Source: Methanolinea sp. (GTDB taxonomy: Archaea > Halobacteriota > Methanomicrobia > Methanomicrobiales > Methanospirillaceae). Taken from it: a DNA stretch of 64,000 nt. The translations under genes were made by a program, and so were the position numbers. Location of the stretch: positions 62,001-126,000 of the forward strand of contig JANIHI010000001.1 of the NCBI GenBank assembly GCA_024518585.1, in the 5' to 3' direction. The notes beneath the pieces were generated by a model. That model was given only the letters and a program-made list of their open reading frames with translations, did not search any database and was not told the DNA's origin. This document shows, one piece after another, positions 13,839 through 35,164 of the stretch; positions within the stretch are counted from its first letter, which is position 1; every line of letters begins with the position of its first letter.

Positions 13839-14065
13839 TTTTTTCCTCTTCGTTATTTCAAGTGGCTACGTTGTATGAAGGTCGTGTAAGGATATTACTG
13901 TAAAAACGAAACTCCGATCCTACCCGGTCACTGCGTACAGTCACTAAAACCTTCGCCGGGGCGCACTGCCGGCGGTAGCGGAACTATCCCCATGGGTGGC
14001 GTGGGGGGGGGAGGCAGCCCCCACTTTTGGTTCCTTCCTATCCACCCATCCAAAATAGAAAAGAG
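13839..14065 (+). repeat. Interspersed repeat R1, copy A (diverged centre)
   Basis: Shares GTGG(C)TACGTTGTATGAA and GGAACTATCC...GGGGGGAGGCAGCCCCC...GGTTCC with copies at 33600 and 63668. Confidence 0.75.
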
Positions 14066-14125
14066 CCTCATAATTCAGGCCCGGGACTCCGGGCTGCCCC
14101 GGGATAACTCTCCCGGCGGCTGAGA

Positions 14126-15976
14126 TCATGTTTCTCCCCTACCGGGGAGGGGCCCGGGGTCCCTTTTCATTGGGCAGACACCGGCACCCGCAAGGTTCCC
14201 CCCTGCCCAGGAATATCTCTCCCTGATACCGGGCGGGAGGTTCTCCTCGCTGATCTCAACGAAACCGAAACGGGCATAGTAATCCGTGAGATTGAGGAGA
14301 GAGAACATGTAGAGTGGCTCGTCCCCGCAGGCCTCCACGAGGCCACGGACGGTGAGTGTTGAGTATCCCCGACCCCTGTGGCGTGCCGGGGTAAAGACGG
14401 CATCAACTTCCAGCCCGTCGGGAAACCGCCTGCAGCGTGCGAGGGAAACGATCTCTCCGGCAAGGAAGGCCGCAAAGATCCTGTCCCTCCGGGGATCTCC
14501 CTTCGTCTGGTGGTAATCAACCCAGGCCTCGTCTGCAAGGGAAAATTCTTCCGATACGAGTTCCCTAACCTCGATACCCCTTTCGGGGGGGGCACGGCAC
14601 CGGGAGGGGGGAGGGAGGGGCTCCGCATCGGGCCCCGTCCCCTCGATGCGATAGCATTCCTGCGGGATGGCCAGGACAAAGACGGCCCCCTGCCCCTCTT
14701 CCCCCTTTTCCGTGATTATGATACCCGTCACATCAAGGATCTGCCGGCAGATAAAGAGGCCAAGCCCCGCATGCCCCCCGGAATCGTACTCAAATATCGA
14801 TTGCTTTCTCTCCGGGGGAACGCCGCACCCGTTGTCCCGGACGACGAGTTCGATCCTGCTTCCTTCCTGGTGGTAGGACATGACAATCGATGTCACCCCT
14901 TTTCCATGGCGGAGGGAGTTTTCGACAAGATGCCTGACCACCTCGCGGAAGAGGGGGTCCGCATAGACAACCAGCCTCTCGACCCAGAAACGCATCGTGA
15001 CCCCCGCCGTATCCCCGGGAAACTCCCTGCAGCAGACAATGTCGCGGAGGCTGATCCAGTCGGGCGGGACCGCCCCGAGGTTCTGGTAAGCCTGGGAGAG
15101 AGTGACCTGCCGGGCAAGGTTGGCTGCCCGTTCCCGAATTTCGGCAATGAGAGAGAGGCTGCCCGGATCCCTGCACAACTGTGAGAGCCTGGTGACGACT
15201 CCCATGAGTTCTGTGACGGTCCGTTGGAGGTGGTCCGATGAGATCCGGGAAAGGAGATTTAACTTGGTGTTCGCCTTCCTGAGAGCCTCCTCTGCCGCAA
15301 CCCTCTTGGTGATATCAACGAACGAAATTACTGCCTTTCCTCCCGGAAGGGAAGCGACAGAGACAAGAATGTGGACCTGCTCCCCATCCGGACGGGTGAC
15401 CTGGACCTCATTTGCATAGATCCTCTCCCCTTTTTTTACCCGGGAAAAAATGGTATCCACAACCTCCTCGCCAAGAATTCCTGCAAGGGGCTTTCCCGCC
15501 GGGGGCGCCGTGTCCATTCCGAGGAGGTGGACGGCGTTCCAGTTCATCTCCTCGATGACGACCTGGTCCTCCCTCTCCCCGACAAGGATGATCCCGGCCT
15601 CTGAATTGTCAAATATTCCACGGTAAAGGTCCTCTTTCTCGCGGAGCCGTGCAGAGAGGAATGCGACCAGCCCCCCGACCCCGATGAGGACACAGCCCCG
15701 GATGACGGCTTCCATGAAGGCCCCGCTCCCATCCCCCCCGGTATAAAAAAAGACGAGCGAGAGGTAACATGTGGTGACGACCACGGCGAGGGAGAGGCCC
15801 TGCCGGGGGTACCGGTACGAACCAATCACGACCGGGACGTAGAGCAGGTGGGGAAACACCACCGTAACCCCCATTGCAAGACCGATGCCGTTGAGAAGGA
15901 GTGCCCCGGCACAGGAGACGAAAAACAGGACGGCCCAGGAGAGCTTTCTCTTTGAAATACCCGCGTCACCGGTCAT
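14126..15976 (-). CDS. Membrane PAS sensor histidine-kinase-like protein with C-terminal GNAT-type acetyltransferase domain
   Basis: N-terminal TM helices, PAS, HATPase (VENSLRHGK, VVRDNGCGVP, GLGLFICRQIL), then a GNAT-like segment (VDAVFTPARHRGRGYSTLTVRGLVEAC...YYARFGFVEI). Confidence 0.82.
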   Translation of the reverse strand: MTGDAGISKRKLSWAVLFFVSCAGALLLNGIGLAMGVTVVFPHLLYVPVVIGSYRYPRQGLSLAVVVTTCYLSLVFFYTGGDGSGAFMEAVIRGCVLIGVGGLVAFLSARLREKEDLYRGIFDNSEAGIILVGEREDQVVIEEMNWNAVHLLGMDTAPPAGKPLAGILGEEVVDTIFSRVKKGERIYANEVQVTRPDGEQVHILVSVASLPGGKAVISFVDITKRVAAEEALRKANTKLNLLSRISSDHLQRTVTELMGVVTRLSQLCRDPGSLSLIAEIRERAANLARQVTLSQAYQNLGAVPPDWISLRDIVCCREFPGDTAGVTMRFWVERLVVYADPLFREVVRHLVENSLRHGKGVTSIVMSYHQEGSRIELVVRDNGCGVPPERKQSIFEYDSGGHAGLGLFICRQILDVTGIIITEKGEEGQGAVFVLAIPQECYRIEGTGPDAEPLPPPSRCRAPPERGIEVRELVSEEFSLADEAWVDYHQTKGDPRRDRIFAAFLAGEIVSLARCRRFPDGLEVDAVFTPARHRGRGYSTLTVRGLVEACGDEPLYMFSLLNLTDYYARFGFVEISEENLPPGIRERYSWAGGNLAGAGVCPMKRDPGPLPGRGET

Positions 15977-33599: not shown

Positions 33600-33825
33600 T
33601 AAAAAATCCCTCTTCATCATTTTAGGTGGATACGTTGTATGAATGGGGTATAGTCTCTCGCTGGATTGAGCTGGTGAATCAAAAAAATATCGACTTGATG
33701 CAAAATGAATGGTGAAACCGCCGCCGATGGCGCCCTTTTGTGGCGGCGGAACTATCCTCGTGGGGGGCATGGGGGCGAGGCAGCCCCCCCTTATGGTTCC
33801 TAACCACCCACTCAAAAGAGCGAAG
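33600..33825 (+). repeat. Interspersed repeat R1, copy B
   Basis: TACGTTGTATGAATGGGGTATAGTCTCTCGCTGGATTGA...AAAAAATATCGACT...ACCGCCGCCG...GGGGGCGAGGCAGCCCCC closely matches copy C. Confidence 0.88.
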
Positions 33826-33835
33826 AGAAAAAAAA

Positions 33836-35164
33836 TTAATAAATTGCCAGGTAACGGTCCAGTTCCCAGGGATGGACCGCGAGCCGGAACAGGTCTGTCT
33901 CCAGTTGTGCAATGGAATTCAGGCCATCCATGATATGGGAACCCATGGCCTTGGCAATGACAGGATCTTCATTTAATGCCGTATTTGCCTCGATGAGACT
34001 GCCGGGGAGCATCTCTATCCCGCGTTTCTTCCTCTCTGCTTCCGAGAGATGGTAGATGTTGACATCCGTGCTCTCCGGGGGCATGGTCTTCTTCTTGATC
34101 CCATCAAGACCCGCGGCAAGCATCGCGGCAAAGCAGAGGTACGGGTTGCACATCGGGTCAGGACTCCTGAACTCGGCCCTTGTACTGTTCCCGCGGGCTG
34201 CCGGGACCCTGACGAGCGCCGACCTGTTCGTGGCACTCCAGGTGATATAGACCGGGGCTTCGTACCCGGGGACGAGTCGTTTGTACGAGTTGATCGTCGG
34301 GTTTGCGACCCGGGTTATCGCTTTTGCATGGGCGAGAATGCCGCCAATGTAGTACATCGCGATATCCGAGAGTCCATCCTTTGCATTGGAATCATAAAAT
34401 GCATTCTTTCCATTTTTCGCGAGGGACCCGTGGGTGTGCATTCCGCTGCCGTTAATCCCCCCAATGGGCTTGGCCATGAACGTCGCATGGAGGTTTCTTG
34501 CGAGTGCCAGGGTCTTTGTCGCGAACTTGAACGTGATGACCTTGTCTGCCGTGTCGAGGGCATCGCTGTACTTGAAGTCGATCTCGTGCTGGCTCTCTGC
34601 CACTTCATGGTGGGATGCCTCGATCTCAAATCCCATCTGGGTAAGTGCAAAAACGATATCCCGCCTGACATCTTCCGCGGCATCGGTGGGTGCAAGGTCG
34701 AAGTACCCGCCGTAGTCCTGGTAATTGGTCGAGGGCCTCCCGTCAACCATCTTGAAGAGGAAAAATTCCAGCTCAGGTCCGGTATTGAACGTAAAACCCA
34801 TTTTCTTTGCCTGTTCGAGTTGCTGCCTCAAGACGAAACGCGGGTCACCCTCAAAGGGCTTGTTCCCGTACGTGTAGACATCGCAGATGAAACGTGCCAC
34901 CCGGGCATCTGCCGGCCTCCAGGGGAGGATTGCGTACGTGGCAGGGTCGGGTTTCAGGAGCATGTCAGATTCTTCAATCCGGGCAAAGCCTTCAATGGAG
35001 GAGCCATCGAACCAGATCCCCTCCGTCAGGGCCTTTTCAGCCTGTTGAACCGGGATCGCAACATTCTTTGGCATGCCCTGGATATCGGTAAACTGGAGCC
35101 GGAGGAACCTGACTTCGTCAGATTCAATCCGTTCCAGCATCTCGGACACGGTGTCTTTCCGCAT
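33836..35164 (-). CDS. glnA: Glutamine synthetase
   Basis: WFDGSSIEGF, FMAKPIGGINGSGMHTHGSL, NRSALVRVPAARG. Confidence 0.98.
   Translation of the reverse strand: MRKDTVSEMLERIESDEVRFLRLQFTDIQGMPKNVAIPVQQAEKALTEGIWFDGSSIEGFARIEESDMLLKPDPATYAILPWRPADARVARFICDVYTYGNKPFEGDPRFVLRQQLEQAKKMGFTFNTGPELEFFLFKMVDGRPSTNYQDYGGYFDLAPTDAAEDVRRDIVFALTQMGFEIEASHHEVAESQHEIDFKYSDALDTADKVITFKFATKTLALARNLHATFMAKPIGGINGSGMHTHGSLAKNGKNAFYDSNAKDGLSDIAMYYIGGILAHAKAITRVANPTINSYKRLVPGYEAPVYITWSATNRSALVRVPAARGNSTRAEFRSPDPMCNPYLCFAAMLAAGLDGIKKKTMPPESTDVNIYHLSEAERKKRGIEMLPGSLIEANTALNEDPVIAKAMGSHIMDGLNSIAQLETDLFRLAVHPWELDRYLAIY

Follow-up and report, generated by a model that had tools for sequence, protein, structure and literature searches.

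The closest described relatives of the repeat studied here are ISL3-family ISs and their MITEs. An ISL3-family IS encodes a transposase with ISL3 domains, its terminal repeats are imperfect and ~24 bp long, and its 8-bp duplication is AT-rich. The classical duplication length of these elements is 8 bp, as in the direct repeat (DR) TTCTTTTT of CLJ-ISL3 (PMC7643977). In Methanosarcina acetivorans, a MITE with the ISL3 partner ISMac21 is 179 bp long and has 6 copies, with IR 22 and DR 7 (PMC3852290, Table 4). We saw no hairpin module that is common to other repeats in the description of that MITE (PMC3852290). Two other systems resemble a part of our repeat. REP/BIME palindromes (the GTAG and CGTC superfamilies) are short, GC-rich, intergenic, and high in copy number, and the CGTC REPs, too, have no transposase of their own (PMC3733652). 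In ISPpu9, structure in the 5' UTR limits translation (PMC8450116). We found no description of MITEs or palindromes from Methanoregula or Methanolinea in the literature.

Our repeat lies in a 64,000-nucleotide stretch of a Methanolinea genome, and we refer to the whole of this stretch as the window. Like the ISL3-family ISs, it has imperfect terminal repeats and AT-rich 8-bp duplications, and its partner encodes ISL3 transposase domains; unlike them, it has no transposase and it keeps a conserved hairpin leader. Like the MITE of M. acetivorans, it comes from an archaeal methanogen, has an ISL3 partner, is comparable in size, and has inverted ends with short direct repeats, but the two are from different genera and orders, and the likeness is one of description. 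We conclude that the repeat is ordinary in kind (a MITE of an ISL3-type IS), and that it contains a strongly conserved two-hairpin module that reappears across this archaeal family, both in other transposons and in repeats of high copy number.

Copies of the repeat in the window and in its genome

The window contains three copies of the repeat (A, B, and C), all in the same orientation, as the first-pass annotation had reported; the shared blocks and the GGGGGC...GCCCCC hairpin that it named are also present, and we refined the ends (Table 1). The genome that the window comes from is 1.78 Mb in 27 contigs and is 96.5% complete. With copy B as the query, blastn found 40 matches in this genome. 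The best non-self matches are 85% identical over the full length (E = 1e-59), so this is not chance similarity, and most of the full-length copies are ~80-86% identical to copy B. The three repeats are real members of a family with about 40 matches in the genome.

The MITE is about 222 bp, has no transposase gene, is far shorter than the IS, and is present in multiple copies. Copy A is a mosaic: its ISL3 ends surround a middle that matches L031, another copy that carries an IS256-type end. The covariance model for the module (R1, described below) matches copy C at 63773-63833 with 27.5 bits.

Table 1. Positions of the repeat copies in the window and of the parts of copy B.
Feature	Position	Strand	Description
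Copy A	13844-14067	+	224 bp; MITE with ISL3 ends and a mosaic middle that resembles an IS256-type end
Copy B	33608-33829	+	222 bp; full-length ISL3 MITE with both terminal repeats; 85% identity to other full copies
Copy C	about 63676-63867	+	MITE; right terminal repeat lost beside the 3' end of the SIMPL gene
Left terminal inverted repeat of B	33608-33634	+	same as the 3' end of the IS, on the transposase side
Right terminal inverted repeat of B	33803-33829	-	same as the IS 5' end
Hairpin 1 core of B	33718-33749	no strand	CCGCCGCC...GGCGGCGG; covariance model R1 matches 33706-33765 with 40 bits
Hairpin 2 of B	33771-33788	no strand	GGGGGC-GAGGCA-GCCCCC; from pairing analysis
Left target flank of B	33600-33607	no strand	AT-rich TAAAAAAT; degenerate duplication
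Right target flank of B	33830-33837	no strand	AAAAAATT; same as the left flank at 6/8 positions

The repeat is a MITE of an ISL3-family IS

The copies have imperfect terminal inverted repeats of ~25 bp (left, CCCTCTTCGTCATTTCARGTGGGTACG; right end reversed, GGCTCTTCGCTATTTTGAGTGGGTGGA), which the first-pass annotation missed. A degenerate 21-base pattern for these ends, with up to 3 mismatches allowed, occurs at 58 places in the genome, as compared to 2 places for the reversed control pattern. Among the 20 candidates in this genome that have both ends, 5 are flanked by exact 8-bp duplications (GGATTATA, TATTTTTA, AAAATAAA, GAAATTCA, and CTAAATAT), and none of these extends to 9 bp. If the flanks are re-paired at random, then 0.30 exact duplications are expected, and none of 20,000 shuffles had as many as we observed. 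The flanking 8-mers are 84% AT, versus 45% in the wider flanks. In a congener (G010), at least six near-identical copies have perfect 8-bp duplications (AAAAAATT at L067, TTCAATCT at L066, AAATCTTC at L068, ATCAAAGC at L070, AAAAAACT at L071, and TTTTTTTT at L065). The window itself is less tidy: the duplication at copy B is degenerate and copy C has lost one end.

The other half of the evidence is the partner element. In G010, the C-terminus of an ISL3 transposase at the edge of a contig (L050) is directly followed by the MITE's left end. Over 33 bp, the left terminal repeat of copy B is 85% identical to this end, and the left end of the G010 MITE is 97% identical to it. Copies that matched in the right half only are the other end of the IS, with the N-terminus of an ISL3 transposase upstream, on the opposite strand (L016 and L028 in the window's genome and L093 in G010). 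The transposase domains in these joined ends are Zn_ribbon_ISL3 and HTH_Tnp_ISL3, and DDE_Tnp_ISL3 in the case of L050 (PF14690, PF13542, and PF01610). The MITE and IS ends match species by species: the right 110 bp of the G010 MITE is 97.3% identical to the 5' end of the IS (L093), and in the window's genome, the right 113 bp of the MITE L006 is 98.2% identical to the 5' end of L028. Another genome (G219) has one IS that is decayed but whole: it is about 1.39 kb long and spans both ends (L145).

The first-pass annotation stated that no transposase is nearby. The window indeed has none, but N-terminal pieces of ISL3 transposases, joined to the same right half, are present elsewhere in its genome. 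A search of this genome for the ISL3 DDE domain gave no match, and we saw no intact ISL3 transposase there; one of its IS copies (L028) runs into the end of a contig.

The site of copy B is empty in the two closest relatives. In both G003 and G010, glnA is 95% identical to the glnA of the window's genome and is followed by the same next gene (amt), with no element behind glnA. Therefore, copy B is an insertion in its own lineage or, less simply, was lost precisely from both of the others.

Together, the inverted ends, the 8-bp duplications, the ISL3 partner ends, and the empty site behind glnA bear out the MITE-like option of the first-pass annotation. It had suggested a search for target-site duplications, which would speak against its other options, and the duplications that we found point to a MITE. 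We are highly confident that the repeat is a non-autonomous MITE of an ISL3-family IS. The MITE formed by internal deletion of the IS: its left ~33 bp is the end of the IS that lies beyond the stop codon of the transposase, and its right ~110 bp is the end that lies before the start codon. Given this anatomy and what is established about MITEs, it was probably moved in trans by the ISL3 transposase, a DDE enzyme that would give the 8-bp AT-rich target duplication. Most of the copies in the window's genome are probably decaying now. A repeat that was unexplained has become a traceable element whose parent IS, deletion, and empty site can be named, and its copies should be annotated as MITEs and not as sRNAs.

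A conserved two-hairpin module

The right half of the MITE contains hairpin 1 (CCGCCGCCGGGGCGCCC-NNC-GGGGGCGGCGG), then a NNNNATC linker, and then hairpin 2 (TGTGGGGGC...GCCCCCACA). In the parent IS, this module is between the terminal repeat and the ATG of the transposase (in L145, it ends about 25 bp before the ATG). The first-pass annotation saw a true structure, but what it saw is part of the parent IS, in its 5' leader.

No other part of the element is as well conserved as the module. Between the consensus MITEs of the window's genome and of G010, hairpin 1 is 94% identical, the linker is 93% identical, and hairpin 2 is 93% identical, as compared to 85% for the left end, 74% for the right end, and 61% for the middle. 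A 27-bp stretch of hairpin 1 is identical in at least five genera, in differing surroundings.

We assessed 32 diverse copies, and 92.3% of their cells pair. Hairpin 1 hardly varies among these copies. In hairpin 2, two compensatory pairs are well supported (G-C to A-U and C-G to U-A), and there are two-sided changes in 18 cells, versus 6.3 in shuffles (0/500 shuffles were as high). The shuffles ignore relatedness, so we consider the evidence for compensatory pairing to be good but not final. We found no support for the sRNA source that the first-pass annotation suggested: wobble-type mismatches of the two kinds are about equal (46 A-C versus 32 G-T, one-sided p = 0.07), and therefore no RNA strand is singled out. 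Single copies did not fold significantly more stably than shuffled sequences. Rfam had no relevant match at the gathering threshold in the window, and none at E ≤ 1 in six loci with the module.

These results do not point to a known RNA (nothing in Rfam) and do not favor an RNA on one strand (no clear asymmetry in the wobble counts). We also rejected a coding role for the core. There are in-frame readings beside the transposase in L016 and L028, but the frame is not kept in L093, in L145, or in other contexts.

The module occurs across a family of archaea and in other transposons

We built a covariance model (R1) on the core of the module. With E ≤ 0.01, R1 matched 75 of the 108 genomes of one family, which we take to be the Methanoregulaceae. 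With E ≤ 1e-4, it matched 71 of the 108, versus 3 of the 124 other genomes that we searched. Of the 232 genomes of the order, 16 contain the exact core pattern, and every one of these belongs to this family; the reversed pattern had no matches.

Besides the ISL3 elements, the core has several kinds of carriers. In G011 (L087:306-1558), a Transposase_mut (IS256-type) gene has the core 7 bp after its stop codon, and the same IS256-type end with the core is also present in G028 (L162) and in G008 (L119/L121). In G008, G005, G004, and G226, the core is in a MITE of a second family, which is roughly 300 bp long and ends in GGGTATAGTG. The module is present at least 146 times in the genome G173; the copies that we examined are inside an intergenic repeat of ~200-260 bp that has multiple hairpins and no ISL3 ends (L197-L211; for example, L203:2087-2146). 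G024 has many copies of the core without recognizable element ends. The module adjoins transposases from two families that are not related, and its copy number can exceed 100 in a genome with no REP transposase to account for it. This raises testable questions about the spread of palindromes and about the presence of insulators in archaeal ISs.

The MITEs of the second family, at about 300 bp, have GGGTATAGTGACAATC ends at L111, L117, L118, L120, and L122 from G008, L090 from G005, and L099 from G226. Separately, two loci in G024 (L125 and L126) have clusters of the core that alternate with the GC palindrome CTCCCGGGGCTTCGCCCCGCCGCTGCGGCGACCCC; these resemble BIME-type mosaic repeats.

Potential roles of the module

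From the arrangement of the parent IS, our best but tentative guess is that the module could be an insulator, which would prevent transposase from being made by transcription that comes in from outside. Transcripts or polymerases that arrive from the flanking genes would meet GC-rich hairpins, and read-through would yield no transposase. In the MITEs, the module would be a passenger. Judging by eye, the ISL3 IS has a TATA-like stretch between hairpin 1 and the ATG. In two other ISL3 ISs of the family (L054 and L220, from G023 and G211), the stretch that separates the terminal repeat from the transposase has hairpins that are GC-rich (GGGGGACGGAGTCCCCC; AGGAGGGGGTGCAACCCCCTCCT). These hairpins are not homologous to the module but are in the same place, and those of L054 are upstream of a TATA-like box (again by eye), which supports the insulator idea. 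On the other hand, the leaders of two more ISL3 ISs (L048 and L218) are 54 nt and have no hairpin, and the module is also found away from any IS; both weaken the idea. To our knowledge, termination in archaea is not generally driven by hairpins, which also counts against an insulator.

Alternatively, the module on its own could be a REP-like palindrome that is mobile in its own right and that inserted into several transposons, including the ISL3 IS. This would account for the presence of the same core in ISL3 elements, on the 3' side of an IS256-type transposase, in the GGGTATAGTG-ended MITE, and at so many places in G173, as well as for the many G024 copies that lack ISL3 ends. However, we found no target duplication and no empty site for the module itself, and we consider independent mobility to be doubtful. 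A REP/RAYT system is ruled out, as the REP transposase (Y1_Tnp) is almost absent: it is in only 5 of the 108 genomes in the family, while the module is in 75. The module also differs from REP/BIME palindromes in that it has neither a RAYT nor an unpaired GTAG or CGTC tag (its flanks, as read by eye, are TGAW and NNNNATC), and in that it comprises two different hairpins in a fixed order that are tied to IS ends in several genera.

A broader idea is speculative. The module might be a palindrome that is specific to the family Methanoregulaceae and independent of any one transposase family; transposons that are not related to each other (ISL3, IS256, and the GGGTATAGTG-ended MITE) would either have acquired it as an insulator for the transposase gene or be its vehicles. 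If this is true, then either way, one conserved DNA structure is common to IS families and to high-copy intergenic repeats.

It seems unlikely that the module is an RNA device (a 5' leader or an sRNA) in the transposase mRNA. The precedent is ISPpu9, another IS, where a structured region ahead of the transposase gene limits its expression, and the module is indeed directly upstream of the transposase in the ISL3 ISs, with covariation in hairpin 2. But the action of the ISPpu9 structure was shown at the RNA level, while the module is probably upstream of the promoter: there seems (by eye) to be a TATA-like box after the module and before the ATG, and the module would then be left out of the native transcript. 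Also, the wobble pairs do not indicate a strand, and in the IS256 elements, the module follows the gene.

Gene context of the repeats

The codon-based gene caller that we used called 89% of the window as coding. None of 29 copies in the window's genome overlaps a called gene, and none of 64 aligned copies in G173 is within one. The first-pass annotation described each copy as immediately 3' of a minus-strand gene. The three copies in the window do fit that description, but it is not a rule across the genome: the 27 copies with called genes on both sides are in 10 convergent, 13 tandem, and 4 divergent gaps, and those in tandem gaps are split 8 versus 5 by strand. In G173, there were 22 copies in convergent gaps versus 12 in divergent gaps. 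Overall, there is a mild bias towards the 3' sides of genes, with no strand rule.

That host genes use the repeat as a structured 3'-UTR element or terminator, which the first-pass annotation had put forward, is very improbable: the position of the three window copies, the excess of convergent over divergent gaps in both genomes, and the compensatory changes in hairpin 2 would fit it, but selection against hits to promoters would give the same bias in position, there is no strand rule and no clear wobble asymmetry, single copies fold no more stably than shuffled sequence, and the repeat has the ends and target duplications of a mobile element, with a site that is empty in relatives.

We also noted that positions 14126-15976 of the window encode a histidine kinase-like protein (HATPase_c and a weak PAS domain) that is fused to a C-terminal GNAT acetyltransferase domain.
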